DNA from: Lysobacter sp. yr284
GTDB lineage: Bacteria > Pseudomonadota > Gammaproteobacteria > Xanthomonadales > Xanthomonadaceae
Length of the DNA stretch: 64,000 nucleotides
Direction: 5' to 3'
Assembly (NCBI RefSeq): GCF_900107375.1
Contig: NZ_FNPT01000006.1
Coordinates: 1 to 64,000, forward strand
In this document: positions 10,553-43,802 of the stretch, in pieces
Layout: the number at the start of each line of letters is the position of its first letter
How positions within the stretch are numbered: the stretch's first letter is position 1
Program-made: the position numbers and the translations under genes
Notes under the pieces: model-generated
Database searches by the model: none
Seen by the model: the letters and a program-made list of their open reading frames with translations, nothing else
What the model was told of the DNA's origin: nothing

Positions 10553-10582
10553 GCGGCGCTCGCGGGGCTGCGACGTCTTTCG

Positions 10583-28294: not shown

Positions 28295-28723
28295 CTAGAA
28301 CGAGATTTCGACCGAGGCCGCGCTGCGGTCGGCGTCGCCGTGGTGCACGGCTTCGATGTTGTTGCCGTCCGGGTCGAGAACGAAGGCGGCGTAATAACCG
28401 GGGTGGTAGGCGCGCTCGCCGGGCGCGCCGTTGTCGCGCCCGCCGTGGGCGAGCGCGGCGCGGTGGAACGCATCGACCATCGCCCGGTCGCGCGCCTGGA
28501 AGGCCAGGTGGTGGCGTCCGGTCAACGCGCCCTGCGCCGCGCGGCTGGCGGCGCTGGAGACGAACAGCTCGTCGGCCCAGAAATAATCCTCGCCGCTGCC
28601 GCCGATCGGCACCCCCAGCACGTCGAACACCGCGGCGTAGAAACGGCGGCTGGACTCCAGGTCGTTCACCACCAACTGCAGATGATCGATCAGACGGCCG
28701 CGGTGCAGGGTTTGCGTTGCCAT
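28295..28723 (-). CDS. VOC-superfamily (glyoxalase-like) protein
   Basis: A 142-aa vicinal-oxygen-chelate fold protein with two beta-alpha-beta-beta-beta units: IDHLQLVVNDLESSRRFYAAVF with the first metal histidine, HHLAFQARDRAMVDAFH with the second, and AAFVLDPDGNNIEAVHH with the last acidic ligand. Families include lyases, dioxygenases and resistance proteins, so the substrate is open. It is 76 bp after the last gene of the p-aminobenzoate operon on the same strand; it could be part of that transcript, perhaps in self-protection, or independent. Confidence 0.87.
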   Translation of the reverse strand: MATQTLHRGRLIDHLQLVVNDLESSRRFYAAVFDVLGVPIGGSGEDYFWADELFVSSAASRAAQGALTGRHHLAFQARDRAMVDAFHRAALAHGGRDNGAPGERAYHPGYYAAFVLDPDGNNIEAVHHGDADRSAASVEISF

Positions 28724-28799: not shown

Positions 28800-29519
28800 T
28801 CAGCCGTTGACCGCGGGAAACTGCGCCAGCACCGCATCGAGCAACCCCATCCGCAGCCGCACCATGTCCTCGCCCACCGCCAGCACCTTGGCGCGCCGGT
28901 GCGGCCGATCCTGCAGCAGGCGGTTGATGATCTCGCGCATCACCAGCGCGTGGCCCTCGTCCTCGCTCACGTGCAGGACGAAGAAATGCAGTTGCCGGTC
29001 GCTGTAGCCGGCCCGGCGCAGGCCGTCGAGCAGGCCGCCGTACAGCGTCGGGACGATCGCCTCGGCGCCCAGGCACAGCGCGGCCAGGCCCTCCAGCGGG
29101 TCGGGCGAGCGGCAGTAATGGAACATGCTTTCGATCAGCGCCGAGGTCTCGGGCAGGATCGGCGCGCTGCGCGGGCGCACGCCCAGCTCGCTGAGGCAGC
29201 GGCGGTAGAGTTCGGCGTGGGTGACGGCGTCGGGGCGGTCGAGCCCGGTTTCCTCGATCAGGTTGGCGGCCAGGGCGCGCACGTCTTCGTTACTGGGCAT
29301 GCGCGACATCAGCGCGCACAGGTAGCGGGTGAAGTTTTCCGAGTAATAGCTGTGCTGGACCAGGAACGCGCGCAGCAATTCGACGGCGTTGGCGTCGTCG
29401 CGGCAGCGGCGCAGGAACGCATGGCGCTCCAGCTCCTGCAGCAGGCCCGGCGGGAACAGGTCGTCCCACAGGGCGGGCGGCGCGTCCAGGTGCGCGCGGA
29501 GGTCTTCGATGACGTGCAT
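28800..29519 (-). CDS. Heme-oxygenase-like diiron oxidase (HDO), stand-alone
   Basis: A 239-aa all-helical iron-containing redox enzyme, last gene of the ten-gene operon and 9 bp after PabC. The HDO ligand set is present: Glu89/Glu90 with His101 (LIEETG...VTHAEL), Glu153 (LCLGAEAIVP), and His183, Asp187, His190 in HVSEDEGHA. Known members N-oxygenate amines or cleave C-C bonds. Because the operon makes p-aminobenzoate, the aromatic amine is an obvious candidate substrate, but this is inference. It is the second HDO in the window; the other is fused to a GNAT domain. Confidence 0.87.
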   Translation of the reverse strand: MHVIEDLRAHLDAPPALWDDLFPPGLLQELERHAFLRRCRDDANAVELLRAFLVQHSYYSENFTRYLCALMSRMPSNEDVRALAANLIEETGLDRPDAVTHAELYRRCLSELGVRPRSAPILPETSALIESMFHYCRSPDPLEGLAALCLGAEAIVPTLYGGLLDGLRRAGYSDRQLHFFVLHVSEDEGHALVMREIINRLLQDRPHRRAKVLAVGEDMVRLRMGLLDAVLAQFPAVNG

Positions 29520-29528
29520 GGCGTTCCT

Positions 29529-30467
29529 CTAGGCGGGTGGCGTTGCGGGGATCGGTCGGGGCGGCGAAGGCTGCGGCGTAGGGGCTTGCAGCAACGGCCA
29601 TGCCAGGCCGGTGCATGCGCGCACCCGCTCGGCGTAGGCCGCGCTCAGACGCCGGCTGACCGGGCCGGGCGCGGGCCAGTGCAGGGCGGGCGCGTTTTCG
29701 TGCAGCAGCTGGCGGATCGGGGCGAGGCCGATCAGGGCGTTGGTCATGAACGCTTCTTCGACTTCGCCCAGGCGCGCGGCGGGCAACGAGCGTTCGGCCG
29801 CCGCCAGGCCGAGCGAGGCGGCCAGTTCCAGCACGCAGGCGCGGGCGGTGCCGGCCAGCGGGCCGTCGCGCAGCGGCGGCGTGGTCAACGCGCCGTCGAT
29901 GACGAAGAACAGGTTGCTGTACGCGCCTTCGCAAACGTCGCCGTGCGGGTTGCACAGCAGCGCCTCGTCGGCGCCGTGGGCGTGGGCCTGGTCGAAGGCG
30001 AGGATGGAGGCGAGGTAGTTGGCGTGCTTGCTCGCGGTCGGCGCCTGCTCGGGCAGGGCGTGGATGCGTTCGCTGGCGAATACGGCCACGCCTTGCCGGT
30101 AGACGCGCGGTTCGTAGCGCCGCGCCGGCAGGCAGGCGGCGACCCAGGTCGGGTCGCGCGCGCTGTCGCTGGCCAGTCCGGCGCCGCGGCCGCGGCTGAG
30201 CCACAGGCGCAGGGTCGATTCGGGTTCGCGGTGGGCGGCGATCACCGCGGCGATAGCCTCGCGCCAATCGTCGGCGCTCGGCGCGACGGCGAAGCGCAGC
30301 GCCTGCGCGCCGCGCTGCAGGCGAGCGAGGTGTTGGTCGAGCAGGAACGGCACGCCGGCGTAGACCGGGACGGTCTCGAACAGCCCGTCGCCGTAGAGGA
30401 AGCCGCGGTCGAACACCGAGACCTTGGCCTGTTCGGGCGGCACCAGTCGGCCGTCGAGCCAGATCAT
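29529..30467 (-). CDS. pabC: Aminodeoxychorismate lyase-like class IV aminotransferase
   Basis: A 312-aa PLP enzyme of fold type IV. It starts WLDGRLVPPEQAKVSVFDRGFLYGDGLFET, the standard PabC/DAAT opening, and the PLP lysine is in TASKHANYL. The later CEGAYSNLFFVIDG and GTARACVLELA bind cofactor phosphate. With PabA-PabB encoded at the head of the same operon, conversion of aminodeoxychorismate to p-aminobenzoate is the natural role. D-amino-acid or branched-chain transaminase activity is the alternative. The ATG overlaps the preceding gene's stop by four bases. Confidence 0.87.
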   Translation of the reverse strand: MIWLDGRLVPPEQAKVSVFDRGFLYGDGLFETVPVYAGVPFLLDQHLARLQRGAQALRFAVAPSADDWREAIAAVIAAHREPESTLRLWLSRGRGAGLASDSARDPTWVAACLPARRYEPRVYRQGVAVFASERIHALPEQAPTASKHANYLASILAFDQAHAHGADEALLCNPHGDVCEGAYSNLFFVIDGALTTPPLRDGPLAGTARACVLELAASLGLAAAERSLPAARLGEVEEAFMTNALIGLAPIRQLLHENAPALHWPAPGPVSRRLSAAYAERVRACTGLAWPLLQAPTPQPSPPRPIPATPPA

Positions 30468-31825
30468 CGCTGCCAGCCCCAGCTGCGGCGCAGTTCGAGC
30501 AGGCCCAGGCGGTCCTTACGCAAGGCGCCCAAGTCGGAATCGGCCGGGCCGTCGAAGTGTTGCAGGCGCGCCAGCAGGCTCCAGCTGTCGTCGAGGCGGT
30601 ATTCCAGGTTGGCGAACCAGGCGCGGCCGTGGCCGTCCAGGCTCTGCAGCACGCCGATGTCGCCGCTGAGGTCGCCTTCCAGCGGCGCGCGGGTGAGGCC
30701 GAGGTACAGGCCTTCGCTGTCGGCCTGGCTCTGGAACCAGATCGCGCGGTTGGCGCGCAGCAAGGGCGCCGGCAGCGCCGCGGTGCCGCGCGGGCGCTCG
30801 GCGCGGCGCTGCACGTACTGCGCCAGTCCCAGCCAGCCGCCGTCGAAATGCCGCTCCAGCCCGAGCACGGCATAGCGTTGGTCGCCCAGGCCGGGCGGCG
30901 GCGGTCCGTCGAAGCGGGTCTGCGCCCATTCGCCGCGCAGGCCCCAGCGGTCGCCGAGCGAGGCGCTGAAGTCGGCGCCGATCACGCGCACGCGCGCCTG
31001 GCTCAGGCGCGGCAGCGCCGCGCGCGCGAACGCGGGCAGGGTGGAATAGCCGTCGAGCACGCTCAGCGAGGCGTCCAGGCCCGCGCCGGCGTAGTCCAGG
31101 CGCAGCGCGCCGGTCGCGCCGGCGGCGCGGACGCGGTCGCCGCGCACGCCCGGCAACGGCTTCCACAGCGAACCGGGCAGCACGCTCGCGGGCAGGCGCG
31201 GGACGTGCAGCGCGGTCAGCGACCAGCGCTCGCGCCATTGCACGCGCGCGGAAACCAGATCGACGCCGATGCGGTCCTCGTCGATGTCGCTGACCAGGGC
31301 GCGCATGTTGCGCGGGGACAGGTTGTCGGTGGGATTGAGCCGGTCGGCGCGGCCCCAGGCGACGATCTGGCGACCGGCGCGCAGTTGCAGCGGGCCGGCG
31401 GTGTATTCGGCGAAGGCCTGACGCAGCGGCGAGGCGTCGTCGTAGCCGAGCCGCCGGTTGCCGGCGACCGCTTCGACCAGGCCGCGCCAGGCGCCGCTGC
31501 GCAGTTCGCTGCGCACGCGCGCGGCGGCGCCGAAGCGCGCATCGGCGTCGTCGAGGTCGCGGCTGCCGCTGGCGGCGAGCACGGCGCCGGAGGCGGTGCC
31601 GGTCCAGCGCAGGTCGCGGTCGGAGGAGGGATCGGCTTGCGTCGCCGACGAAGTCCCGGCCGGCGCCGCAGTCGCTTCCGGCGCGGGTTCCTGCGGCGAT
31701 TCCTGCATCGCGGCGACCGCTTGCGTCTGCGCCTGCGGCGACGCATCGCCCGCCGGCGCGTCCGCCTGCGCCTGCGCCTGGGTGCAGGCGCAGGCCAAAG
31801 CCAGTGCGAGCAAGGCAGGCCGCAT
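30464..31825 (-). CDS. Outer-membrane beta-barrel protein (DUF1302-like) of the export unit
   Basis: A 453-aa protein with a signal peptide (MRPALLALALACACTQAQA), an Ala/Gln/Pro-rich linker to about residue 70, then a long series of alternating amphipathic strands with aromatic girdle residues (LQLRAGRQIVAWGRADRLNPTDNLSP, YAVLGLERHFDGG, WFANLEYRLDDSWSLLARLQHF), characteristic of outer-membrane barrels such as DUF1302 proteins. It overlaps the stop of the LolA-like gene by one base. A MMPL pump, LolA-like protein and DUF1302-like barrel often occur together, which suggests a path from inner to outer membrane. Confidence 0.82.
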   Translation of the reverse strand: MRPALLALALACACTQAQAQADAPAGDASPQAQTQAVAAMQESPQEPAPEATAAPAGTSSATQADPSSDRDLRWTGTASGAVLAASGSRDLDDADARFGAAARVRSELRSGAWRGLVEAVAGNRRLGYDDASPLRQAFAEYTAGPLQLRAGRQIVAWGRADRLNPTDNLSPRNMRALVSDIDEDRIGVDLVSARVQWRERWSLTALHVPRLPASVLPGSLWKPLPGVRGDRVRAAGATGALRLDYAGAGLDASLSVLDGYSTLPAFARAALPRLSQARVRVIGADFSASLGDRWGLRGEWAQTRFDGPPPPGLGDQRYAVLGLERHFDGGWLGLAQYVQRRAERPRGTAALPAPLLRANRAIWFQSQADSEGLYLGLTRAPLEGDLSGDIGVLQSLDGHGRAWFANLEYRLDDSWSLLARLQHFDGPADSDLGALRKDRLGLLELRRSWGWQR

Positions 31826-32628
31826 CACTGGCCCAGGCGCGATTCGACGAACGCGTCGTCGCGCTGGACGCGCGCGCTGTCGACGTTCTTCAGCGTCAGC
31901 ACCGAACTGCGCCCGCCCTTGCTCGCGGTCATCTCGCGGCGGGTGGCGATGAACTTGCCGGGCTGGCCGGCCGCGGCGACGTAGCCGGAAATGCTCTGGC
32001 GCTTGAACTCCTGGCCGGACGCATCGAAGTAGCGCACCTGGACTACGGTGAAATCGTTCTTGCGCACCGTCGCCACCAGCTTGGCGTAGCCCAGCGACGC
32101 AGCGGTCTTGGCGTCGCGCGGCACCGACTGGACCACATAGCAATTGGCGCCGCCGCAGGCTTCGTCGGCCAGCGCGGTGTGGACGAAGTCGGCGCTGTCC
32201 TGGGCCATCAGGTCGGCGTAGGCGAAGTCCGAGCCCATGAAGCTGTCTTTCTTGTTCGACGCCAGGATGCGCCGGGTCTTGCCCATGCTGGGGAAGTAGA
32301 TCCACAGATCGTCCTGGGCGGCCGCGTTCTCGTGCACCAGCACCGCGGTGCCGGCGACGTCGGCCGGCGTGGCGAAGCGGAACAGGCGGCGGCTGTCCAC
32401 CGCGTTGGCCTGCAGCTTGTTGTAGACCACGCCGCCGCGGCTGCGCACGCGCTCGCCCTGGCGGATCTCCAACTGGCTGTCGGCCTGCCAGTTGGCGGCC
32501 TTTTCGGCGGCGCTGCTGCGCTCGAAGATCTGTTGCGCGGCGGGCTTGGCGGCGTCCTGGGCGAAGGCGGCGCAGGCGGTCAGCGCCAGCGCGCCGGCGA
32601 GCAGGCGCAGGGGAAGGCGGGCGATCAT
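31825..32628 (-). CDS. LolA-like outer-membrane lipoprotein-sorting family protein
   Basis: A 267-aa periplasmic protein with signal peptide ending AAFAQ. The fold pattern (YFPSMGKTRRI, SFMGSDFAYADLM, VVQVRYFDASGQEFKR) is that of LolA/LppX-like proteins adapted to RND partners, which carry lipids or hydrophobic molecules across the periplasm. It lies between the MMPL pump (four-base overlap) and the outer-membrane protein (one-base overlap), so the three form a transport unit. The cargo is probably the product of the surrounding pathway, or a lipid-linked form of it. Confidence 0.87.
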   Translation of the reverse strand: MIARLPLRLLAGALALTACAAFAQDAAKPAAQQIFERSSAAEKAANWQADSQLEIRQGERVRSRGGVVYNKLQANAVDSRRLFRFATPADVAGTAVLVHENAAAQDDLWIYFPSMGKTRRILASNKKDSFMGSDFAYADLMAQDSADFVHTALADEACGGANCYVVQSVPRDAKTAASLGYAKLVATVRKNDFTVVQVRYFDASGQEFKRQSISGYVAAAGQPGKFIATRREMTASKGGRSSVLTLKNVDSARVQRDDAFVESRLGQ

Positions 32629-35000
32629 GGGTTCTCCTGGACGGGGTGGGTCGGGGCGGCCGGCGCGGAGGAGGCTTCTTCGGTCAGGCGCGGCAACAGG
32701 CCGCGCAGCCAGCCGGCGCGTTCCAGCGCCATCAGCACCGCGGGCACGAACAGGAACTCGCACAGCGCGCCGCAGCCGATCGCCAGCGCGGTGACGCCGC
32801 CGAACTTGGCCAGGCTCTGCACTTCCGACAGCATGTAGATGGCGAAGCCCAGCACCAGCACGCTGGACAGCAGCAGCATCGCCAGGCCGGTGCTGGCGAA
32901 GGCCTCGCGCAGCGAGCGGGCCATGTCGCGGTTGCGCCGGTAGTGGTCGACCACGGTCTTGACGAAATGCAGGGTGTCGTCGTCGAGGATGCCGATGGCG
33001 ATCGCCGAGACCAGCAGGGTGAACGGGTCCAGGAACACCCCGGCATAGCCCATCACCGCCATCGCCACGCCGACCGGAATCAGGTTGCACAGCGCCATCG
33101 CCACGCCCAGGGTGGCGGAGCGGAACACCAGCACCATCACCACCAGCACCACCAGGAACGACAGGGTGATGCTGCGGATCTCGTTGGCGGCGAGGTAGTT
33201 GGTCAGGTTCGACCACAGCGGCACCACGCCGGTGGTCTCGATCGAGCGGATCTGCGGCGTCTCGCGCAGGATCCGCGCCGCCTCGGCCTCGACTTCGCGG
33301 AACAGCGGCTGGTACTGCGAGTCCGGCCGGTACTTCATGCGCAGGTTGATGCGCGCCTTGGCGTAGTCGCCGGTGACCATGCGCGCGAGTTCGTCGCTGC
33401 CGGAAGACTCGAACAGGATCAGCGACTCGGCCACCGCGGCGCGCGAGTCGGGGATGCGGTAGGCCGCCTTGTCGCCGCCGTGCAGGGCCTGGCCGATCTC
33501 CATCACCACGTCGGCGATGCTGTAGGTCTTCAGGCCGAGGTCGGCGTAGCGGGTTTCCAGCCGGTCCTGCAGCTCGCGCATGCGCTTGAGCACGCGCGGA
33601 TCCTTGATCGATTCGCCGCCGGCCTCGGCGCTGTCGACCACCAGCTCCATCGACGCCGCGCCGCGCAAGGTATCGTCGACGTAGGTGTAGGACTGGTAGA
33701 TGTCGGTGCTGGGCTTGAACAGGCCGACGTAGTAGTAATCGGTGGTGACCTTGGCCACGCCGAAGCCGACCACGGTCAGCAGCCCGGCCAGCGCCAGCAG
33801 CATCAGCCGCCAGCGCCGGGTGACGAAGTCGGCCACCGCGTGCATGCCGCGCATGCGGCCGTCCAGCAGGCGCGCGGCGCGGCCGGCGTCGGGCAGCAGC
33901 TTGAAGCGGCTGATCGCCAGCGGCACCAGCAGCCAGCCGATCAGCAGCGAGGCGACCAGGCCGGCGGCCATGGAAATGCCGATGCCCTGGACCGGACGGA
34001 TCTCCGACCACGAGAACGACAGCAGCGCGCCGGCGGTGGTCAGCACCGACAGCGCGCTGGCGCCGGCGGAATGGCTGAAGCCCTCGACCACGGCCTCGCG
34101 CAGTTGCGCGCCGGCGGCGTACTGGCGGTAGATCTCGGCCAGCAGGAACACGCTGGAGCCCACGCCGACCGAGATCAGGAACGAGGGGATGATCGCGGTG
34201 AGCATGCCGACCGGCGCGCCGATCAGCGCGCTGACGCCCATCGCCACCACGATCGACAGCGAGGCCACCACCAGCGGCAGCAGGGCGACCAGCCAGGCGC
34301 GGAAGATCAGCCAGAAGCCGATCGTGACCAGCACGAACGACAGCGTGCCGAAGATCGCGCTCTCGCGGTTGATGATGGTGAACACGTCGGCGTCGATGAT
34401 CGGCGAGCCGACCACGCGCAGGTTCAGGGACTGGAACTCGGGCGTATGCGCCAGCGCGCGGATCTTCTTCGCCAGCTCGATCTTGTAGACGATCTGGCGC
34501 GGCTTGAGCCCGGTTTCGGCGAGGATGCCCAGGTGGCTGCCGTCGCGGCTGACCAGGAAGTCGCGGTAATACGGATGGGCCAGGGCTTCGGCGCGCTTGG
34601 CCGCGAGCGCGGCCGCGTCGAGGTCTTCGCCGAGGAACGGCCCCACGTCCAGGCCGTTGCCGTCGACGCTGGCGATGTGGCGCACGCTGGCGATGGTGGT
34701 GACCTTGTTGACGTCGTCCATCGCCGCGATCCGCGCGCCGAGCTCGCGCACGGTGGCGATGAAGCGCGGCGTCCACGCCGGCGGCGCGTCCAGCACCAGG
34801 AAGCTGTATTCGTCGCTGCCGAAGTCGGCCTTGTACTGGGTGTAGCGGACCAGCGCCGGGTCGTCCTGCATGAAGAACGAGTCGGGCGTGTTGTCGAAGC
34901 GCAACTGGGTCAGGGCCAGGCCGGAGCCGAGCAACAGCGCCAGCAGCAGGGCCACGCAGGTGCGCGGATGGGCGAGGATGCGAAGGATCAGGGTGCGCAT
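32625..35000 (-). CDS. RND/MMPL-family exporter
   Basis: A 791-aa inner-membrane transporter of the MMPL branch. It has the two-fold plan of the family: one membrane helix at the N-terminus, a large periplasmic loop (about 40-230), five to six helices, a second periplasmic loop (about 420-600) and a final helix block (LVVLVVMVLVFRSATLGVAMAL onwards). The conserved DDDTLHFV motif in the last helix block and GVGSSVFLLAEIYR in the first match the sterol-sensing-like core. Proton-driven export of a hydrophobic product is likely. It begins 6 bp after the condensation-like gene. Confidence 0.92.
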   Translation of the reverse strand: MRTLILRILAHPRTCVALLLALLLGSGLALTQLRFDNTPDSFFMQDDPALVRYTQYKADFGSDEYSFLVLDAPPAWTPRFIATVRELGARIAAMDDVNKVTTIASVRHIASVDGNGLDVGPFLGEDLDAAALAAKRAEALAHPYYRDFLVSRDGSHLGILAETGLKPRQIVYKIELAKKIRALAHTPEFQSLNLRVVGSPIIDADVFTIINRESAIFGTLSFVLVTIGFWLIFRAWLVALLPLVVASLSIVVAMGVSALIGAPVGMLTAIIPSFLISVGVGSSVFLLAEIYRQYAAGAQLREAVVEGFSHSAGASALSVLTTAGALLSFSWSEIRPVQGIGISMAAGLVASLLIGWLLVPLAISRFKLLPDAGRAARLLDGRMRGMHAVADFVTRRWRLMLLALAGLLTVVGFGVAKVTTDYYYVGLFKPSTDIYQSYTYVDDTLRGAASMELVVDSAEAGGESIKDPRVLKRMRELQDRLETRYADLGLKTYSIADVVMEIGQALHGGDKAAYRIPDSRAAVAESLILFESSGSDELARMVTGDYAKARINLRMKYRPDSQYQPLFREVEAEAARILRETPQIRSIETTGVVPLWSNLTNYLAANEIRSITLSFLVVLVVMVLVFRSATLGVAMALCNLIPVGVAMAVMGYAGVFLDPFTLLVSAIAIGILDDDTLHFVKTVVDHYRRNRDMARSLREAFASTGLAMLLLSSVLVLGFAIYMLSEVQSLAKFGGVTALAIGCGALCEFLFVPAVLMALERAGWLRGLLPRLTEEASSAPAAPTHPVQENP

Positions 35001-35006
35001 GGACGG

Positions 35007-36377
35007 TCAGCCGTTGGCGGCGAGGCTGGTGGGAGGGGCGTCGGCCGCGGTCGCGCGGCGCAGTTCGGCGATGAAGGGATCGATGAAGCGCGCGCGCATC
35101 TGCGCCTCGTCCATCTGGCCCTTGTCGTAGAGATAGACCAGGCGCAGCCGGCCGCGGAACGCGCTGATCTGCACCATCACCTCGCCCGGCGGGAACAGCT
35201 GCGGGAACGAGTAATAGCTGCGCACCGCGATCGGGCCGAAACGCTCCAGCCGCGCGTCGATCGGGCCGACATTGGTGCAGATCAGGTTGGCGCGGGTCAG
35301 CACGTTGGCGGCGAAGCGGATGGTCGCGGCCTTGGGCAACAACAGCGAGCTTTGGAACAGCAGGCGGAAGCGGTACAGCTCGGACAGGATCTCGCCGCCC
35401 TTGAGCGCTTCCAGGCGCCGGTTGGCGCGCGCGATCACCGCCTCGTCGTCCTCGTCCGGGTCCAGTTCCAGGGTGTAGGGCACGGCTATGCAGTCGTAGA
35501 GCGCGTGGATGCGCGGGTCGTCGACGAAGCGGCGCAGGCTGAAGTTGTCGACGATGCGCAGGCCGTGGCGCAGGCGCTTGCCCTGGCGCGCCGCGTCGGC
35601 CTTGGCGGTGCGCAGCAGGGCCAGCAACAGCAGCGGGTGGATGGTGCTGTCGCGGCGGGCGCCGGCGGCCTTGAGCTGTTCCAGCATCGGCGGCGGCAGC
35701 TCGACCATGAGCACATCGGTCTCGCCGCTGCGCTTGCCGTCGATCAACAGCCGCCCGGCCGGCATGAACAGGTCGTGGAAGAACCCGGCCACGCCTTTCC
35801 AGGCCAGGCGCAGCGCGCGCAGGCCGCCGATCCCGGCCAGGAACAGGCGGTCGTGGTTGTGCTCGGGCAGTTCGACCGTCCCGGTGTCCAGCGGCAGGCC
35901 CGCGGCCAAGCGCCCGTAAGCCTCGGCGATGTCGCCGGAAAACAGCTGCGCGGCCTTGCCGTCGGTGAAGGTGTGGCTGGTGAGGATCTGCAGGATGTGC
36001 TTGTCGGGCGTGCGGGTGTAGATGAAGCGGAACGGGTGTCCGTCGCGGGTCGGCACCCGCCGGCCCCAGGCGTTCTCCAGCAGTTCCGCGCGCAGGTGCG
36101 CGGGATCGAGATTGATGCTGGTGCGCTGCTCGACCTGGATCGGCAGGCGTTGCGGCAGGTGCCGCCAGCCCAGGATCACGCCGCGCTGGTATTGCACCGA
36201 GCGCGCGCGCGGATGGCGGTCGATGGTGTGCTCGATCGCCCGCGTCAGCAGGGCCAGGTCGGGCGCCGATTCCAGTTCGATCCAGTCGCAGGAATTGGCG
36301 TTGCAGATCAGGTTGAGGTGGGCGTAGATCTGGTTGAAACGACCGAGGCGATGCTCGACGGGGGCGGTCGGCGCCAT
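35007..36377 (-). CDS. Condensation-domain-like acyltransferase (HxxxD)
   Basis: A 456-aa stand-alone member of the CoA-dependent acyltransferase superfamily. The catalytic HxxxD is HTFTD (His135-Asp139) in ILTSHTFTDGKA; a later INxG-like area reads LICTNVGPIDARL, and the second half has the expected latch and floor-loop region. Family members form amides or esters from thioesters: NRPS C domains, wax-ester synthases, PapA-type. Here it may join an activated aminobenzoyl unit to an amine, alcohol or a second acyl group. No carrier domain is visible in the operon, so CoA thioesters are the likely donors. Confidence 0.82.
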   Translation of the reverse strand: MAPTAPVEHRLGRFNQIYAHLNLICNANSCDWIELESAPDLALLTRAIEHTIDRHPRARSVQYQRGVILGWRHLPQRLPIQVEQRTSINLDPAHLRAELLENAWGRRVPTRDGHPFRFIYTRTPDKHILQILTSHTFTDGKAAQLFSGDIAEAYGRLAAGLPLDTGTVELPEHNHDRLFLAGIGGLRALRLAWKGVAGFFHDLFMPAGRLLIDGKRSGETDVLMVELPPPMLEQLKAAGARRDSTIHPLLLLALLRTAKADAARQGKRLRHGLRIVDNFSLRRFVDDPRIHALYDCIAVPYTLELDPDEDDEAVIARANRRLEALKGGEILSELYRFRLLFQSSLLLPKAATIRFAANVLTRANLICTNVGPIDARLERFGPIAVRSYYSFPQLFPPGEVMVQISAFRGRLRLVYLYDKGQMDEAQMRARFIDPFIAELRRATAADAPPTSLAANG

Positions 36378-36381
36378 GGCC

Positions 36382-37197
36382 TCAGCCCTCGTTGCCGGAG
36401 CGGTAGGGGAAGTCGTTCTTCTCCAGCGCGATCAGGTCCGGGCGGCCGAGTTCGTCGAACACCTCCTCGACCTCGGCGCGGAACTCGTTGCGCAGGGTCT
36501 CGTTGTCCTTGCGCTTGAGGCCGTACGCGCTCAGCCGCTCGCCGCGCTTGGTCGAGGGCGGGCCGAAGAAGTTCAGGCCCTTGGCGTACCAGTTGGAGAT
36601 CTTGACCCGGGCTTCGTTGGTCTCGCCCTTGTCGGCCAGGTAGGTGCGCAGCTCGGCGAAGCCGAAGCCGATGTGGCCGCGCTCCTCGCGCAGGATCACC
36701 TGGTTGGCTTCGGCCCAGGGCTTGAAGCTGGCCTCGCAGAAGTTGCCGACCATGAACTTGCCGGCGCGGTCGAGGAACATGTGGTTGAGCATGATGTCGA
36801 TCCACTCGTTGTCCTCGTGGCCCACGCTCAGCGGGCCTTCCAGCGAGGCGTCGTGCATCGGCCGGTGCGCGCGGCCTTCGGCGATGGCGATGGCCTGCTT
36901 CTCGGGGATGCCCATGCGTTCGAGCAGGTGGTAGATCAGATAGCTGTGGCGGGCTTCCTCGGCGATGATCTTGGCGAACACCCGGCGGCGCTTGTAGTCG
37001 GGCGACTTGGCGATCCACTCGATGCCTTCGGTCGCGGCCTTTTCCTCGGAATAGGCCTGGATCGCCATCAGCCGCACCAGTTCCTGGCGGTAGTCCTCCG
37101 GCAGGTCGGGCAGGTCGGCGAAGTCGATCGAGCTGGGGGCGTAGTTGAACGCCGGCGCGTGCGCGGCGTCGGCGAGGGCGACAACGGTGGTGTTCAT
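36382..37197 (-). CDS. PaaA-like diiron oxygenase (phenylacetyl-CoA epoxidase family)
   Basis: A 271-aa ferritin-like protein. The two ExxH pairs of a carboxylate-bridged diiron centre are visible: Glu81-His84 in AEEARHSYLIY and Glu172-His175 in REERGHIGFGF, with further ligands Glu51/52 and Glu155 (NFCEASFKPW). This matches PaaA, the catalytic subunit of phenylacetyl-CoA epoxidase. Subunits PaaB-E, including its reductase, are absent from the operon. Alongside two acyl-CoA-type ligases, oxidation (epoxidation or hydroxylation) of an aminobenzoyl-CoA ring or of the amine is plausible. It is 4 bp before the condensation-like gene. Confidence 0.88.
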   Translation of the reverse strand: MNTTVVALADAAHAPAFNYAPSSIDFADLPDLPEDYRQELVRLMAIQAYSEEKAATEGIEWIAKSPDYKRRRVFAKIIAEEARHSYLIYHLLERMGIPEKQAIAIAEGRAHRPMHDASLEGPLSVGHEDNEWIDIMLNHMFLDRAGKFMVGNFCEASFKPWAEANQVILREERGHIGFGFAELRTYLADKGETNEARVKISNWYAKGLNFFGPPSTKRGERLSAYGLKRKDNETLRNEFRAEVEEVFDELGRPDLIALEKNDFPYRSGNEG

Positions 37198-37242
37198 GCG
37201 CGGTTCCTTGTCAAAGAGAGGGGCCGGGAAAGAAGAGGGCGG

Positions 37243-38856
37243 TCAGGCGGTGGCGTAGCGCTGGCGGACCTGGCGCTTGAGCACCTTGCCGGTGAGCCCG
37301 CGCGGCAGCAGTTCGCCGGGCGGCAGCACCTCGATGCGGGCCAAGCCGTGGCCCGGCGCGTGCTGGCCGAGCCAGCGCTCGAAGTCGCCGGCCTCGGCGC
37401 TGTGGCCGGGGCGGCATTCGATCACCGCGCCGGCGGCGGCATCGAGCTCGATCACCGCCACGTCGGCCACCGCGGGATGCTTGAGGATGCGTTCCTCCAG
37501 CTGCAGCGAGTACACGCGGCCGTCGCCGGCGCGGATCGAATCGACTTCGCGGTCGAGGTGGTAGTAACCGCCGCCGCGGGTCTTCACCGCCACGTCGCCG
37601 GTCCACCACCAGCCGTCCAGGTACACGCCGTGCAGGCGGTCGTGCGCGTTCCAGTAGCCCTTGAACAAGGTCGGCCCCTTGACCATCAACCGGCCCGGCT
37701 GGCCGACCGGCAAGGGCCGGCCCTGGTCGTCGGCGACCTTGACCTTGGGGCTTGCGGGCGTGGGACGGCCGACATAGCGGTCGAAGCGGCGGGTGAAGGA
37801 GAAGCTGACCTTGAGCAGCGCGGCGAAGCCGACCTCGGAGGTGCCGAAGAACTCCAGGTACATCGAGCTGAGCACGCGCTTGCCGAACACCCGCGCCATC
37901 GCGCCGTGCGCGGTGAACTGGCGGATGTGCACTTCGTGGCTGGAATCGCCGCCGGCCATCCACGCCTTGACGTGGGACAGGTCGAAGCGCGACAGCCCGG
38001 CCTCGCACATGCCCTGGTAGACGTCGGGAAACGACAGCACCAGGCTGCAGCGTTCGCGTTCGATCAGGCCCAGCAGCTGCTCGGGCGATTCCTCGCCGGG
38101 CACGTAGCCGGGCACGCCGGCGGCCAGGCAGCTGACGATGCTGGCCTGGGTGATGTGGTGGTTGGTCGGCGAGGCCAGCAGGATGCGGTTGTCGCGGGTG
38201 ATCGGCTGGATCAGCAACTGGCCCTTGGTCGCGCGGACCAGGCTGTAGGAGCCGTGCAGCACGCCCTTGGGAAAGCCGGTGGTGCCGGAGGTGTGCACGA
38301 TCATCACGTCGTCGTGGCGCTGGATCGCGACCGGCGCGAACCCCTCGGGCGACGGCGCCAGGCACTGCGCCAGCGCCAGCACGCCCTCGCCGGGGCTGTG
38401 CGCGGCGTCGGTCACCAGCGCGGTGCGGCGGCCGTCGGCCAGCGGCTCGCGCTGCAGCCGCGGCAGCCGCGCGCCGTCGACGAACACGAAGCGCGAACCG
38501 GTGTAGTCGAGATAGGCGTTGAGGTCTTCGGCGCGCATGCCGCCGTTGATCGGCACGGTGATCGCGCCGGCGCGCATGATCGCCAGCGAGTACAGGAAGT
38601 ACTCCACGCCGTTGTCGAGGTAGATCGCGACCCGGTCGTAGCGCTGCAGGCCCAGGCCGACCAGGGTGCGCGAGAGCCGGTCGCAGACCTCGCGTAGTTC
38701 GCCCACCGTGAGCGAGCGGCCGTGCACGCCCAGGTGCGCGAGGCTGCTGGAGAAGCGCAGCACTTCGAAGTCCGCGCCGTAGACGGCGATCGACTTCTCC
38801 AGCGCGTTGGCCACGGTCAGGTGGCGGTCGAAGACGAACTTCAGTCGGGAGAGCAT
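37243..38856 (-). CDS. AMP-dependent acyl-CoA synthetase/ligase
   Basis: A 537-aa ANL-superfamily enzyme with phosphate loop VHTSGTTGFPKGV, the FFGTSEVGF region, TGDVAVKTRGGGYYHLDR and the C-terminal LTGKVLKRQVRQRY lysine. It activates a carboxylic acid as adenylate and then thioester. It is one of two ligases in the operon; the other is fused to a reductase. Start ATG 38856 lies 11 bp after the fusion gene. One of the two probably activates p-aminobenzoate and the other a second acid or fatty acid, but the assignment cannot be made from sequence. Confidence 0.9.
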   Translation of the reverse strand: MLSRLKFVFDRHLTVANALEKSIAVYGADFEVLRFSSSLAHLGVHGRSLTVGELREVCDRLSRTLVGLGLQRYDRVAIYLDNGVEYFLYSLAIMRAGAITVPINGGMRAEDLNAYLDYTGSRFVFVDGARLPRLQREPLADGRRTALVTDAAHSPGEGVLALAQCLAPSPEGFAPVAIQRHDDVMIVHTSGTTGFPKGVLHGSYSLVRATKGQLLIQPITRDNRILLASPTNHHITQASIVSCLAAGVPGYVPGEESPEQLLGLIERERCSLVLSFPDVYQGMCEAGLSRFDLSHVKAWMAGGDSSHEVHIRQFTAHGAMARVFGKRVLSSMYLEFFGTSEVGFAALLKVSFSFTRRFDRYVGRPTPASPKVKVADDQGRPLPVGQPGRLMVKGPTLFKGYWNAHDRLHGVYLDGWWWTGDVAVKTRGGGYYHLDREVDSIRAGDGRVYSLQLEERILKHPAVADVAVIELDAAAGAVIECRPGHSAEAGDFERWLGQHAPGHGLARIEVLPPGELLPRGLTGKVLKRQVRQRYATA

Positions 38857-38867
38857 GGCGGCGTGCC

Positions 38868-41675
38868 TCAGGCGGGCAAGGGGTGGGCGGCCGGGGCGGC
38901 GGCCGGCGAGTCCTCGGCGCGGTGCGGCGCGCCGCGGGCGGTGCGCGCGTGTTCGCGCGCGCGCTCCTGCTGGGCGTGTTCTTCCTGCGCGCGCAGGCGC
39001 AGCGGCGCGCGCTGCAGCTTGCCGGTGCCGGTGCGCGGCAGCGCCTCGACGAACTCGACCAAATGCGGATAGCGGCGCGCATCCAACTGGCGCTTGCACA
39101 GCTCGCGCAGTTCCTCGGCCAGCTCCGGCGAGGCCCGGTCGGAGACCACCCAGGCCTTGGTGCGCAAGGTCGCGGTGTCCTCGGCGATGCCGTCGGCGCT
39201 GGAGGTGACCGCGGCCTCGCGCACCGCCGGATGGCTCAGCAGCACTTCTTCCAGGTCCAGCGGCGACACCCATTGCCCGGCGACCTTGAACATCTCGTCG
39301 TGGCGGCCGCAGAAGTGGAAATAGCCGTCGCCGTCGCGCCAGAACACGTCGTTGGTGCAGTACCAGCCGCCGTGGAAGCGATGGTGGGCGGCGCGGTCCT
39401 GGCGCGAGACCGACAGCGACGGCCCGCGCAGCCACATCACCCCGCGCTCGCCGTTGCGGCACGGGCGGCCGTCGTGGTGGCGCAGCACCGCGTTGAAGCC
39501 CGGCACCAGCTTGCCGGTGGCGCCTTCGCTCTCGCTGTCGGCGACGTTGCTCAGATAGGTCGAGAACGCCTCGGTCGAACCCAGGCTGTCGAGCAGGCGG
39601 ATGCCGTGGCGGCGCAGCCAGTGCGCGGCCACCGCCTGCGGCAGGCGCTCGCCGGCGGCGACGCACAGGCGCAGGCTGTTGCGGCCTTCGATCCGCGCCG
39701 ACAGCGCTTCGTCGTCGAGCAGGTACTGGTACACCGTCGGCACGGCGAACATCACCGTCGGCCGCGCCTCGACGATCAGCTCGGCGACCACCGCCGCGGA
39801 GATCTTGCGCGGCGCGATCACCGCGGTGGCGCCCTTGAGCAAGGCGATCAGCAGGTTCTGCAGGCCGAAGGCGAAGCTGGTGCGCGAAGCGGAGAACAGC
39901 ACGTCGCTGGCGCGCAGGTCGAGCAGGTGCGCGGCGTAGCGCTCCAGCGCGACCACCGGGTCCATGTGCCGGTGCTCGATCAGCTTGGGCTGGCCGACCG
40001 AGCCGGAGGTGAACACCGCGAACGCGGCGTCCAGCGGGCCGGTGGGCGAGGGCAGCGGCGGTTCGCCGTCGTCGCCGTCCGCGGGCGGCGCGGCGGCGTC
40101 TTCCAGCGCCAGCACCGGCAGCGGCAGGCCGGCTTCGGCCAGGCGCGGACGCACCGTCGCGTCGGCGATCACCACGGTCGCTTCGGCCTGTTCGAGCAAG
40201 CCGGCGATGTCGCGCGCCGGCAGCAGCGGATTGATCAGGGTGCAGACCGCGCCCAGGTGCATCGTCGCCAGCAGCGCGGCCACGTGGCGGGCGTCGTCGT
40301 GCGAGATCAGGGCCACGCGCTGCTGGTAGCGCACGCCGGCGGCGGACAGGCGGCGCGCGCACGCGGCCACGCGCTGCGCCAACTCGGCGTAGCGCAGCGG
40401 CTCGCCGTCGTGGCGGATGGCGACCTTGTCCGGATACGCGCGCGCGGCGCCGGCCAGCAGGTGGTCGGCGATGTTGAACTGCGCGGGCAGGGCGCGCTGC
40501 TGCACGAACAGCCGCGCCTCCGGCGACGCGTCGCGCGCCACCCGGCTGCGCTTGAGGAAGGCGCGCAGCCAGCCCAGCACCGCCTGGCGGTCGACGTCGC
40601 GGCCGGCCTGCAGGTCGCCGCCGCAGGCGCGCAGGGTCGCCTCGCGCTGGAAGTGCTTGTCGCCGTGCAGGTAGGGGCGGTAATGGGCGACGCGGCGGGC
40701 CAGTTCGACTTCGCGCCGCGATAGCGGCTCGCGCTCCAGTTCCCGCGGCGCCACCATCGACAGCGGCACGCCGGTGGCTTCGGCCACGCTGGAGACGAAA
40801 TCGCCGACCGGCACGGTCGTCGCCGACACCAGGTGGTACACGCCGCCGCGGCTGGCGTCGCCGTCGAGCGCCAGCATCTCCTCCACGCACACATCCACCG
40901 GCACCAGGTTCAGCCGAGCGCCATCGGGGACCATCAGGCGCAAGCCGCGCTGGGTCGAGGGGCCGCGCTGCGCCGACCAGAACTCCTCGAGCAGCTCGCA
41001 GAACTTGTACAGGCCGCTGTCGCTGGAGCTGAGCCAGGTGCGCGAGTGGCCGACGATGATGCTCGGACGCATCACCCGCCAGCCCAGCCCGGCCGCTTCG
41101 GCGCGGGCGACGATGCGGCGCTCGGCCTCGAACTTGCTGCGCTCGTAGGGATTGGAGAACGCCGCCGGCGCCTGCTCTTCCAGGCGCTCGCCGATCGCGC
41201 CGCTGCGGTCGCCGGCCACGTAGGCGGTGCTGACGTAGTTGTAGTCGGCGCAACCCGACGCGATCGCCAGTTCCAGCGCGTGCATCGCGCCCTGGGTGTT
41301 GATGCGCTCGAGTTCGCCGGCTTCCGACTCGGTGAAGCGCACGGTCGCGGCGACGTGCCAGAACGTCGCGTTGCTGGCGCCGGCGTCCGCGTCGTCGCCC
41401 GACAGCGCCTGCGCCAGGCGCTGGGCCAGGCCGGCGTCGGGCCGCAGCGGATTGCCGTCGATCACCTGCAGGCGCGCCAGGTCGGCGGCGTCGAGCACGC
41501 AGGCGCAGGTCTGCGCGGCCAGGCGGACCGCGGCGACCACGCGCTCGCGCGCGCGTCCGCCGTCGCTGCGGGCGATGCACACCACCCGTTCGCGCGGCTG
41601 CCGCCGCAGCAGTTCCAAGACCAGATGGGAGCCCAGGTAGCCGTTGGCTCCGGTCACGACATGAGTGCGTTGCAT
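38868..41675 (-). CDS. NAD-binding thioester-reductase-like domain fused to benzoate-CoA-ligase-like domain
   Basis: A 935-aa fusion. Residues 1-about 390 form a male-sterility/NAD_binding_4-type extended SDR: nucleotide motif GANGYLG (residues 9-15), a Thr-Tyr-Lys active site with STAYVAG and NPYERSKFEAER, and a C-terminal region like fatty-acyl reductases. Residues about 405-910 are an ANL ligase opening FNIADHLLAGAARAYPDKVAI, closest by eye to benzoate-CoA ligases, with phosphate loop FTSGSVGQPKLIEHRH and GRHDEMFKVAGQWVSP. In carboxylic acid reductases the order is A-PCP-R; here reductase precedes ligase and no carrier domain is seen, an unusual layout. It starts 3 bp after PabAB. Confidence 0.87.
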   Translation of the reverse strand: MQRTHVVTGANGYLGSHLVLELLRRQPRERVVCIARSDGGRARERVVAAVRLAAQTCACVLDAADLARLQVIDGNPLRPDAGLAQRLAQALSGDDADAGASNATFWHVAATVRFTESEAGELERINTQGAMHALELAIASGCADYNYVSTAYVAGDRSGAIGERLEEQAPAAFSNPYERSKFEAERRIVARAEAAGLGWRVMRPSIIVGHSRTWLSSSDSGLYKFCELLEEFWSAQRGPSTQRGLRLMVPDGARLNLVPVDVCVEEMLALDGDASRGGVYHLVSATTVPVGDFVSSVAEATGVPLSMVAPRELEREPLSRREVELARRVAHYRPYLHGDKHFQREATLRACGGDLQAGRDVDRQAVLGWLRAFLKRSRVARDASPEARLFVQQRALPAQFNIADHLLAGAARAYPDKVAIRHDGEPLRYAELAQRVAACARRLSAAGVRYQQRVALISHDDARHVAALLATMHLGAVCTLINPLLPARDIAGLLEQAEATVVIADATVRPRLAEAGLPLPVLALEDAAAPPADGDDGEPPLPSPTGPLDAAFAVFTSGSVGQPKLIEHRHMDPVVALERYAAHLLDLRASDVLFSASRTSFAFGLQNLLIALLKGATAVIAPRKISAAVVAELIVEARPTVMFAVPTVYQYLLDDEALSARIEGRNSLRLCVAAGERLPQAVAAHWLRRHGIRLLDSLGSTEAFSTYLSNVADSESEGATGKLVPGFNAVLRHHDGRPCRNGERGVMWLRGPSLSVSRQDRAAHHRFHGGWYCTNDVFWRDGDGYFHFCGRHDEMFKVAGQWVSPLDLEEVLLSHPAVREAAVTSSADGIAEDTATLRTKAWVVSDRASPELAEELRELCKRQLDARRYPHLVEFVEALPRTGTGKLQRAPLRLRAQEEHAQQERAREHARTARGAPHRAEDSPAAAPAAHPLPA

Positions 41676-41678
41676 GTT

Positions 41679-43802
41679 CTAGCTCCTGGGTTGCGCGAGC
41701 GGAACGGGCACGACGGGCGCGGGTTCGGCCTCGCCGGGAATTCGCCAGGCCTCGGCGTCGCCGCTGGCGCAGCGCGCGACCGCGCGCATCGGCGCGCGCG
41801 CCTTGACCAGGATCTCCTCGAACTCGCCGTCCGGATCGGACAAGGCGATCACCGCGCCGCCGACGCCGAGTTCCAGGCTGCCGTCCTGGTGGACCAGGGT
41901 GCGGATGACCATGCTCAGGTCGGCCGCGCCGTTGAACGAGAGATAGCCGATGGCGCCGGAATAGATGCCGCGCGCGGACGCTTCCAGCGCGTCGATGATC
42001 TGCAGGGTGCGGCGCTTGGGCGCGCCGGTCATCGAGCCGCCGGGGAACGTGGCCTGCAACAGGTCGACCACATCCAGCCCGGCGCTGAGCTGCGCGCGCA
42101 CCGTCGATACCAGCTGGTGCACCGAGGCGTAGCTCTCGACCTGCATCAGCTTGGGCACCCACACCGAACCGACTTCCGACACCCGCGCCAGGTCGTTGCG
42201 GGTCAGGTCGACGATCATCAGGTTTTCGGCGCGGTCTTTCTCGCACTGCTTGAGCTCGGCGACGATGGCGCGATCGTCCTCGTCGCGGCCGGCGCGCGGG
42301 CGCGTGCCCTTGATCGGCTTGATCTCGACCACGCCGTTGGGGCTCAGCCGCAGGAAGCGCTCCGGCGAGGAACTGAGCACGTCGAACCCCGGGTGGCGCA
42401 GCAGCGCCGCGTACGGCGCCGGGTTGATCTGGCGCAGGTGGCGGTACAGCTCGACCGGGTCGAGGTCGGCTTGCGCGCGCAGCCGATTGGTCAGGCAGAC
42501 CTCGTAGGTCTCGCCGTCGCCGATCTGGGCGAAGCATCGGTGGATGCGCTCGCAATACGCCTCGCGGTCGAGTTCCAGCTGGAATTCGACCGGCTCGGCG
42601 CGGTCGCCGTGGCTCAACGCGGGCGCCGGCGGCGTCGCCTGCAGCAGCGCGGCCATGCGCTCCAGCCACGCGCCGTCGTCGGCCTGCGCCGACTGCGACC
42701 CGGTCGCCACCGCATGCCAGCAGCGCTCCAGGTGATCGTAGGCCAGGAAGCGGCGGACCAGGCGCAAGTACAGATCGGGCTGGCGCGCGCGATGCGGCCC
42801 GGCCACTTCGGTCAGCGCCTTGAGTTCGTAGCCGAAATAGCCGACCCAGCCGCCGACGAAGTCGAACGGCAGGGTTTCGCCGCCGCGCAGCTCGACGTCC
42901 AGGCCGGCGCGGATGCGTTCGAACACGGTGTCGGCGCCGGCGTCGCCGACGCGGTGGACCAGGGTTTGCGCGCCGGCCTCGCGGCCGTCGCCGATGAAGC
43001 TGAAGCGCGAGTAGCCGGGCCGGATCGCGCTGGAATCGAGCCAGAACGCAGTGTCGTGGGCGGCGAAGCCGTGCAGGAACACCGCCTGCGGATCGGCCGC
43101 GGCCGCCAGGCGCCGCGACTGGATCGTCCAGGTCTCGCGCGCCTGCGTCGGCGGCGCGGCCGGCTCGCCCGCCGACGCGCTGTCCGCGCCGCGGCGACGG
43201 CGCTTGCGCGCGGTGTGCTGGCGGGCCAGGTCGATGAAGTTGTTGATCAACTGGTGGCCGAACTCGGTGTGGATCGACTCCGGGTGGAACTGCACGCCCC
43301 ACAACGGACGCTCGACGTGCTCCAGCGCCATCACCAGGCCGTCGGCGCTGCGCGCGGTGACGCGCAGGCCCGCCGGCAACGGTTCGGCCGCGATCAGCGA
43401 GTGGTAGCGCACCACATCGAACGACGAGGGAATGTGCGCGAACAACGCGCTGCCGTCGTGTTCGACCGTGCTCAACCGGCCGTGCATCGGCTGCGGCGCG
43501 TGCGCGACGGTTCCGCCGAAGACATGCACCAAGGCCTGGTGGCCGAGGCAGATGCCCAGCACCGGCACGCCGGCGCGGGCGATCGCCTCGTTGCTCACGC
43601 CCATGTCGGCCGCGCGCTCGGGGCGTCCGGGTCCGGGCGAGATCACGATCGCGTCGTAATCGCCCGCTTCGATCCCGGCCCAATCCACCGCATCGTTGGC
43701 GACGACCGTCGGCGCTTCGCCGTTGGCTTCGCCCAGGTAGTGCGCGATGTTGTGGGTGAAGCTGTCGTAGTTGTCGACCAAGAGCACTTTCAAGCGATCC
43801 AT
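41679..43802 (-). CDS. pabAB: Bifunctional aminodeoxychorismate synthase (PabA-PabB fusion)
   Basis: A 707-aa fusion and first gene of the operon. Residues 1-about 200 are the glutamine amidotransferase (Cys85 in GICLGHQAL, His-Glu in QFHPESIHTEFG); a linker with RKRRRRG follows; residues about 240-690 are the chorismate-binding synthase. The signature PIKGTRPRAGRD carries the lysine that distinguishes aminodeoxychorismate synthase from anthranilate synthase (PIAGT), so p-aminobenzoate rather than anthranilate is made. Such fusions are common in secondary-metabolite clusters, as a dedicated precursor supply. ATG at 43802. Confidence 0.94.
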   Translation of the reverse strand: MDRLKVLLVDNYDSFTHNIAHYLGEANGEAPTVVANDAVDWAGIEAGDYDAIVISPGPGRPERAADMGVSNEAIARAGVPVLGICLGHQALVHVFGGTVAHAPQPMHGRLSTVEHDGSALFAHIPSSFDVVRYHSLIAAEPLPAGLRVTARSADGLVMALEHVERPLWGVQFHPESIHTEFGHQLINNFIDLARQHTARKRRRRGADSASAGEPAAPPTQARETWTIQSRRLAAAADPQAVFLHGFAAHDTAFWLDSSAIRPGYSRFSFIGDGREAGAQTLVHRVGDAGADTVFERIRAGLDVELRGGETLPFDFVGGWVGYFGYELKALTEVAGPHRARQPDLYLRLVRRFLAYDHLERCWHAVATGSQSAQADDGAWLERMAALLQATPPAPALSHGDRAEPVEFQLELDREAYCERIHRCFAQIGDGETYEVCLTNRLRAQADLDPVELYRHLRQINPAPYAALLRHPGFDVLSSSPERFLRLSPNGVVEIKPIKGTRPRAGRDEDDRAIVAELKQCEKDRAENLMIVDLTRNDLARVSEVGSVWVPKLMQVESYASVHQLVSTVRAQLSAGLDVVDLLQATFPGGSMTGAPKRRTLQIIDALEASARGIYSGAIGYLSFNGAADLSMVIRTLVHQDGSLELGVGGAVIALSDPDGEFEEILVKARAPMRAVARCASGDAEAWRIPGEAEPAPVVPVPLAQPRS

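Follow-up and report, generated by a model that had tools for sequence, protein, structure and literature searches.

A ten-gene operon of Lysobacter sp. yr284 and its candidate diazotase

Which compound is made and exported by the ten tightly packed genes that run on the minus strand from position 43802 to 28800 of the window, a stretch of 64,000 nucleotides from Lysobacter sp. yr284 (contig NZ_FNPT01000006.1, positions 1 to 64,000)? The genes are, in this order, pabAB, a reductase-ligase fusion, a second ligase (ligase 2), and those for a PaaA-like protein, a condensation-like enzyme, an MMPL exporter, a LolA-like protein and an outer-membrane barrel, followed by pabC and the gene for a haem-oxygenase-like dimetal oxygenase (HDO). 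An earlier reading, made from the letters alone (the sequence-only reading), had taken both ligases for enzymes of coenzyme A (CoA)-type activation. For ligase 2 this is not supported, since it groups with Tri17 and with CreD/CreE-linked enzymes, apart from the acyl-CoA ligases. With a probability of roughly 0.5, judged from sequence comparison, the operon would be a biosynthesis-and-export unit for a reactive secondary metabolite derived from p-aminobenzoate (PABA) and carrying an N-N (diazo-type) function.

A search of the own genome with the AvaA6 diazotase model gave 215.5 bits for ligase 2 and at most 73.6 bits for the 12 other matches. Among PDB sequences, ligase 2 matched 8ztz with 189 bits and Tri17 (8tf7/9bq0), one of its four best matches there, with 163 bits; 9xb8, deposited as FadD yet bearing the clade motif described below, gave 162.7 bits, and the FadDs reached no more than 116 bits. 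Tri17 is described in the available excerpts of PMC11705231 as the N-nitrosylase of triacsin biosynthesis, where its substrate is a hydrazone, with anilines among the accepted substrates; the substrate of ligase 2, unlike that of Tri17, is presumably an aromatic amine.

In a tree of 27 rows, ligase 2 and its homologues form one clade with Tri17, 8ztz, 9xb8 and eight plasmid enzymes, and the split of 17 against 10 rows is supported at 100/100, the fusion's own ligase part being found among the ten. The split was kept (14 against 7 rows, 100/99) in a tree of 21 rows, built without the four PDB sequences and two long ones. The motif GD[AST]xHxx[HY][IV] occurs in all 17 rows of the clade and in none of the ten others, ligase 2 and the clade sharing its GDxxHxxHI form. 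A partly independent control was provided by six-frame scans of the 13 places in the own genome matched by the AvaA6 model, some of which matched part of the model: the motif was found at ligase 2 only, the matches falling at L016 and at L020, whose flank overlaps ligase 2.

The gene contexts of the clade members lead in the same direction. By annotation or tblastn, genes resembling CreE and CreD lie within 12 kb at three of the clade's eight plasmid loci, namely L037, L040 and L041; the CreD match of L040 is cut by the end of the locus, and the nitrosuccinate lyase of L037, from Streptomyces, lies above the NCBIfam cut-off. In two further plasmid loci (L036 and L042), 3-dehydroquinate (DHQ) synthase II-type genes are found near the clade ligases; genes of this type are part of the synthesis of 3-amino-4-hydroxybenzoate. 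The position of ligase 2 in one clade with Tri17 and the CreD/CreE-linked enzymes thus points to diazotisation or N-nitrosation of an arylamine as its putative role.

The two DHQ synthase loci may be considered in their own right. The diazotase-clade ligase adjoins these genes at 7657-13590 of L042, a plasmid of Klebsiella michiganensis, and at 9971-17726 of L036, a plasmid of Sinorhizobium medicae. No CreD or CreE was detected by tblastn in either fetched stretch. Both loci are possible further Gram-negative clusters of the diazo type.

Conservation of the operon and its Leisingera counterpart

The ten genes do not look like a chance grouping, since they occur in the same order in three other Lysobacteraceae loci with 57–89% protein identity, namely in Lysobacteraceae bacterium 2PB (L010/L013), in the Lysobacter metagenome-assembled genome (MAG) ACE_PRO74 (L011/L014) and in Lysobacter antibioticus 13-6 (L012), L010 and L011 being contigs of the named loci L013 and L014. 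Comparison of the flanks by blastn (2.3 to 10 kb) revealed no DNA common to the window or L012 and the others, and the flanks of L013 and L014 were common to each other. In L015, a contig of 8.9 kb from the MAG of a distant gammaproteobacterium, five consecutive operon genes follow in the same order until the contig ends after the MMPL gene, with identities of 33% for the fusion, whose N-terminal part is cut by the contig end, 53% for ligase 2, 58% for the PaaA-like protein, 36% for the condensation-like enzyme and 52% for MMPL.

The distribution of the operon is patchy. The PaaA-like gene was found in three of 149 genomes of the family, including the own one, and in none of the five other genomes of the same genus listed. 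In class- and phylum-wide samples, the own genome gave the sole match to the PaaA-like protein (1 of 369, at E 1e-20), the fusion (1 of 398, at E 1e-100) and the ligase 2 profile (1 of 398, at E 1e-75). A scan of genome contigs with two short peptide patterns yielded four loci from 121 candidate stretches, a procedure by which distant relatives may be missed.

A second version of the cluster was found when plasmids were searched with ligase 2 (97 records), the top of which was formed by five Leisingera plasmids with 44–46% identity. One Leisingera locus (L034) holds homologues of eight operon genes within about 20 kb, i.e. ligase 2 (45%), pabAB (43%), MMPL (36%), pabC (34%), LolA-like (34%), the ligase part of the fusion (31%), the barrel (31%) and the condensation-like gene (29%). 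The cluster of L034 and four further plasmids comprises pabAB, ligase 2, condensation, pabC, MMPL, LolA and formate/nitrite transporter genes. Since the export and pab genes are syntenic in the three Lysobacteraceae and eight of the ten genes have homologues in Leisingera, the two groups of genes are co-conserved, as the sequence-only reading had required.

The 33.6 kb stretch of L034 contains no match to the PaaA-like protein or the HDO. It does contain genes for a formate/nitrite transporter (PF01226) and a PobA-like flavin hydroxylase (PRK08243, over the cut-off). In each of the five Leisingera plasmids the transporter gene comes immediately after that for MMPL, and what lies on its far side is not the same in L. 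thetidis as in the others; the transporter is therefore probably part of the cluster. In Leisingera, the homologue of the fusion's ligase part is itself joined to an aminotransferase and to a middle region with matches to 4ppm (PigE) and, weakly, to acyl-acyl carrier protein (ACP) reductases (6jzu, 35.5 bits); with the NCBIfam PigE model, the protein as a whole scores below the cut-off. The reductase is of the MxaA or carboxylic acid reductase (CAR) type in the window and weakly acyl-ACP-reductase-like, with an aminotransferase, in Leisingera. That a benzoate-CoA-ligase-type domain is joined to two different reductase-like regions suggests that both fusions serve to reduce a thioester. In the trees, the pairing of the window and Leisingera aryl-ligase domains was weak (84/63 with 27 rows) and was not resolved with 21 rows.

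Two observations concern the Leisingera loci themselves. Genes for an acyl-homoserine lactone synthase and a LuxR-type regulator flank the cluster (L034, 21039-23612), which suggests that its expression is quorum-controlled. In Leisingera sp. NJS201 (L054, 8228-15387), the pabAB and aminotransferase-ligase genes are annotated in several pieces, and this cluster looks broken or wrongly sequenced.

Layout of the operon and the predicted roles of its genes

What can be read directly from the sequence is the gene set with its domain families, the operon layout, the co-conservation and the clade to which ligase 2 belongs. The successive spacings from pabAB to the HDO gene are 3, 11, 45, 4, 6, -4, -1, -4 and 9 bases, so that the range given by the sequence-only reading (a four-base overlap to 45 bp) is confirmed; the ten genes and their order were likewise found as described there, the minus strand being added here. 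Matches in Pfam and NCBIfam back the gene names (Table 1); the two weak Pfam assignments among the ten are Condensation and the DUF1302 barrel. A codon-position G+C filter on stop-to-stop frames was passed by seven of the ten genes, ligase 2, the LolA-like gene and the barrel gene being outside its list.

Table 1. Genes of the Lysobacter sp. yr284 operon in order of transcription (positions in the window)
Gene product	Length (aa)	Position	Strand	Basis of assignment
PabAB, fused aminodeoxychorismate synthase	707	41679..43802	-	Pfam GATase + Anth_synt_I_N + Chorismate_bind
Thioester reductase + benzoate-CoA-ligase-type fusion	935	38868..41675	-	Pfam NAD_binding_4 + AMP-binding
Ligase 2, putative nitrite-dependent diazotase / N-nitrosating ANL enzyme	537	37243..38856	-	AvaA6 model, PDB matches, tree, motif
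Stand-alone PaaA-like ferritin-fold diiron oxygenase	271	36382..37197	-	PF05138 71.5 bits, cut-off 28.5
Stand-alone condensation-type acyltransferase	456	35007..36377	-	Pfam Condensation 15.1 bits, below cut-off 30.6
MMPL/HAE3 family inner-membrane exporter	791	32625..35000	-	PF03176; TIGR00921 below cut-off
LolA-like periplasmic carrier	267	31825..32628	-	PF17131 151.6 bits
Outer-membrane barrel, DUF1302-like	453	30464..31825	-	PF06980 31.4 bits, cut-off 23.2
PabC-type class IV pyridoxal phosphate (PLP) enzyme	312	29529..30467	-	PF01063
HDO, haem-oxygenase-like dimetal oxygenase	239	28800..29519	-	PF14518 103.8 bits

Upstream of pabAB, about 1.2 kb without a called gene separate the operon from a CocE/NonD hydrolase gene (45044-47089). 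Downstream, 76 bases beyond the HDO gene, lies a VOC (glyoxalase-family) gene on the minus strand (28295-28723), in the place where two relatives (L013 and L014) carry a cupin gene. The VOC gene gave no tblastn match in L010, L011 or L012, and the boundary drawn at the HDO gene therefore holds.

PabAB exceeds the cut-off of the NCBIfam pabB model TIGR00553 (366.6 against 328.4 bits) and would be a dedicated source of PABA. The pabC gene scores below the cut-offs of the NCBIfam models for BCAT, D-AAT and pabC, and is probably the aminodeoxychorismate lyase, judging by its class IV PLP family and its context. The 6.25 Mb genome contains four further chorismate-binding genes, whose matched stretches are best described by the models for TrpE, a TrpE/PabB type, PabB (332.3 bits, cut-off 328.4) and isochorismate synthase; the pab set of the operon is thus an additional one.

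The reductase-ligase fusion has an aryl-acid-activating part that scores 331.5 bits with the benzoate-CoA ligase model, below its cut-off of 375.25. In the PDB this part is best matched by benzoate-CoA ligase 6m2u, anthranilate-CoA ligase 4wv3 also being found, and the reductase part by MxaA (4u7w, 52.9 bits) and weakly by CAR (5mso). The model for MxcG matches the ligase part below its cut-off. As in MxcG and MxaA, of myxochelin and myxalamid release, and in the CARs, an adenylating domain and an R-type NAD(P) domain are present in one protein; the fusion differs from these in its order, R then A, in its benzoate-CoA type of ligase part and in that no carrier domain was seen among its Pfam matches. 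It may work like a CAR or an NRPS (nonribosomal peptide synthetase) reductive release, with the domains present suggesting aryl-acid activation plus reduction; from the reductase part, an aldehyde or alcohol would be expected.

The two oxygenases belong to different diiron-type families. The PaaA-like protein keeps two ExxH pairs (E81/H84 and E172/H175) that are invariant in five sequences. Relatives of PaaA act on aryl-CoA thioesters. A role as subunit of the PaaABCDE phenylacetyl-CoA epoxidase is not supported, since the score with the PaaA equivalog TIGR02156 is far below the cut-off (68.8 against 280 bits) and none of the partner subunits PaaB to PaaE is encoded among the ten operon genes, the rest of the genome not having been searched for them. 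Its structure model, with a mean pLDDT (predicted local distance difference test) of 50.2, was left unused.

The HDO stays below the cut-off of TIGR04305 (50.6 against 200 bits). Its residues E90, H101, E153, H183, D187 and H190 line up with the positions of the metal ligands of CADD (1rcw), and these candidate dimetal ligands together with the PF14518 fold family place the protein in the HDO superfamily as far as sequence can tell. In the same alignment, Tyr27 of CADD is replaced by Leu36 and Lys152 by Leu163 (Ile in L010 and L011). These are the sacrificial residue and the amino donor of CADD as a self-sacrificing PABA synthase, according to PMC11965152. Because both are absent, the HDO should not make PABA by self-sacrifice, and an assignment as a CADD-type PABA synthase was rejected.

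In L013 (18457-18915) and L014 (18462-18920), the start of a cupin gene falls on the final bases of the HDO gene, and a homologue with 60% identity is found in a distant MAG (G890; L063), divergent from another HDO-family gene (9059-9494 on the minus and 9858-10692 on the plus strand), so that the HDO-cupin pairing recurs across L013, L014 and this MAG. The HDO-family gene of G890 gave no tblastn match to the window HDO. Since the cupin is unmatched in the window genome and in that of L. antibioticus 13-6, the pairing is a lead and not a general feature.

The condensation-type enzyme keeps its HxxxDG motif as HTFTDG in the four Lysobacteraceae and HVYTDG in L015, the Leisingera homologue having HIYTCG, i.e. 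HxxxCG instead. Its predicted structure, a modest model (pLDDT 61.6) that was used for the fold only, yielded Foldseek matches to NRPS condensation domains and SgcC5. The MMPL, LolA-like and barrel genes are found all together, beside the biosynthetic genes, in the window, L010, L011, L012 and L034. In these respects the sequence-only reading has stood up well: its dedicated PABA supply, aryl-acid activation (by the fusion), two different diiron oxygenases, acyl-transfer step and trans-envelope export trio are all supported, the Pfam score of the condensation enzyme being below the cut-off.

Every chemical step of the following route is a proposal based on the assignments above. PabAB and PabC would make PABA. 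As an aryl thioester formed by the ligase half of the fusion, it would then be reduced by the other half to an aldehyde or alcohol. The PaaA-like protein and/or the HDO would oxidise the ring or the amine. By adenylating nitrite and joining it to the arylamine, ligase 2 would produce a diazonium, a diazoquinone or an N-nitroso compound. An acyl group would then be attached by the condensation-type enzyme, and MMPL, the LolA-like carrier and the barrel would carry the lipophilic product across the envelope. In the Leisingera version, the two oxygenases would be exchanged for the PobA-like hydroxylase and a nitrite channel, and the reductase-ligase for the aminotransferase/acyl-ACP-reductase-like/ligase protein.

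Weighing of the diazo-type route against its alternatives

Several points weigh against this route. In the NCBIfam scan, ligase 2 misses the cut-off of the AvaA6 equivalog by far (221.6 against 975 bits) and is scored equally by the generic long-chain ligase model PRK06187 (223.4 bits). The AvaA6 cut-off is evidently narrow, since the CreDE-linked Streptomyces enzyme of L037 also misses it (356.8 bits). In the tree, ligase 2 forms a sister subclade of the Tri17 branch and is not nested within it, and Tri17 is the only characterised diazotase-type row, CreM and AvaA6 having been left out. The rows were relatives' genes, chosen plasmid matches scoring well to ligase 2 and four PDB rows; other ANL families are therefore thinly sampled. 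The clade motif was defined after inspection of the 27-row alignment. As the clade also holds 9xb8 and three loci without a CreD/CreE-like match (L039, L043 and L038), membership is no proof of nitrite use.

The weakest point of the proposed route is the source of the nitrogen. No Form_Nir_trans (formate/nitrite transporter) match was obtained in the window genome. Nor was any nitrosuccinate lyase (CreD) over the cut-off found in it (best match 288.4 against 650 bits; CreE was not searched genome-wide), and that best match is better explained by the adenylosuccinate lyase family, with 676.8 bits over the matched stretch and over the cut-off. No nitrate reductase was recognised, the matched stretches of three molybdopterin oxidoreductases in the window genome being best described as NuoG, PhsA and YdeP. 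CreD, the transporter and nitrate reductase were thus looked for and not found, and nitrite may come from outside. Even the transporter of the Leisingera plasmids belongs to a family that carries formate as well as nitrite.

These gaps in the nitrite supply, together with the equal PRK06187 score and the deposition of 9xb8 as a FadD, are also what best suits the foremost alternative, in which ligase 2 is acyl- or aryl-activating and feeds the condensation-type enzyme, the product being an acylated and oxidised lipid of the aminobenzoyl or aminobenzyl type that lacks an N-N bond. The condensation-type enzyme requires an acyl donor in any case, and export of the MMPL/LolA type suits a lipid. Such a role is at odds, however, with the phylogeny of ligase 2, its motif and the own-genome AvaA6 control, with the CreD/CreE and aminobenzoate genes near several clade members, and with the formate/nitrite transporter gene in five of five Leisingera clusters, and we regard it as possible but somewhat unlikely. 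It comes close to the product originally guessed by the sequence-only reading, a lipid- or acyl-linked oxidised aminobenzoyl compound. The acyl-transfer and oxygenase parts of that guess are upheld, but it probably misses the central step, because the clade of ligase 2 points to diazotisation or N-nitrosation and the fused reductase to an aldehyde or alcohol.

A quite unlikely possibility is that the oxygenases themselves make the N-N or N-O group, the HDO or the PaaA-like protein N-oxygenating the amine (to a product of the hydroxylamine, nitroso, azoxy or diazeniumdiolate type) and the HDO thereby replacing nitrite import. The Leisingera locus would agree with this, having the PobA-like hydroxylase and the transporter and no match to either oxygenase in its 33.6 kb, as would the cupin gene adjoining that of the HDO in L013 and L014 and its homologue beside an HDO-family gene in G890. 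This arrangement recalls SznF, an N-nitroso-forming enzyme with an HDO plus cupin layout. The comparison is based, however, on two architectures, the only ones known, and the cupin is unmatched in the window and L. antibioticus 13-6 genomes. Finally, it is very improbable that the operon mainly overproduces and secretes PABA with the tailoring genes being minor, even though PABA is a reported antifungal of L. antibioticus OH13 (as cited in the accessible parts of PMC13163355 and PMC10441968) and L. antibioticus 13-6 carries the whole operon, since ten co-conserved genes including a reductase, oxygenases and an acyltransferase would be superfluous and the PABA genes named for Hz25/OH13 are given as trp genes together with a pabB, lying at separate loci.

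Relation to known pathways and significance

The closest likeness of the diazo-type route is to the cremeomycin, alazopeptin and avenalumic acid pathways (CreM, AzpL and AvaA6, with CreD/CreE), to which ligase 2 is related by the AvaA6 model, the tree and the motif. As far as the consulted parts of PMC11705231 and PMC11429834 describe them, the cremeomycin and avenalumic acid clusters have an arylamine-making module adjoining an ANL-type ligase. The window operon differs from the cremeomycin type in that CreD and CreE are absent from it, its amine is PABA from pabAB and pabC, and its hosts are Gram-negative; it further adds the fused thioester reductase, the PaaA-like protein, the HDO, the condensation-type enzyme and the trans-envelope trio.

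Albicidin, cystobactamid, obafluorin and azoxymycin also combine PABA or aminophenyl building blocks with oxidising enzymes. Unlike their pathways, the operon shows, among the Pfam matches of its ten genes, no NRPS or polyketide synthase (PKS) module and no AurF family (PF11583). In a literature search, largely at abstract level, no described compound or cluster with such a gene set was found, in line with the sequence-only reading, which could match it to no known pathway.

By this comparison, the operon would represent a variant, found in a new setting, of the arylamine pathways of the diazo type. More doubtful is the broader view of a Gram-negative product class in which dedicated PABA would be reduced and oxidised, would receive its N-N bond from enzymes that are a sister lineage to the CreM/Tri17 diazotases, and would be acylated and moved to or through the outer membrane. 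In such a class, nitrite would enter through a channel in Leisingera, and in Lysobacter a nitrogen oxide would come from the HDO (with the cupin in some strains), two unrelated routes feeding the same N-N step.

Natural products with a diazo or N-nitroso group are rare and reactive, and most of those known come from actinomycetes. A compact Gram-negative operon, free of NRPS and PKS genes, that combines a candidate diazotase with an arylamine supply and an envelope exporter would open new N-N chemistry to experimental test, in the biocontrol genus Lysobacter and in Leisingera, a marine genus. As a flavin hydroxylase and a formate/nitrite transporter seem to have taken the place of the two diiron-type oxygenases in the latter, comparing the two versions would be a clean test of the origin of the second nitrogen.

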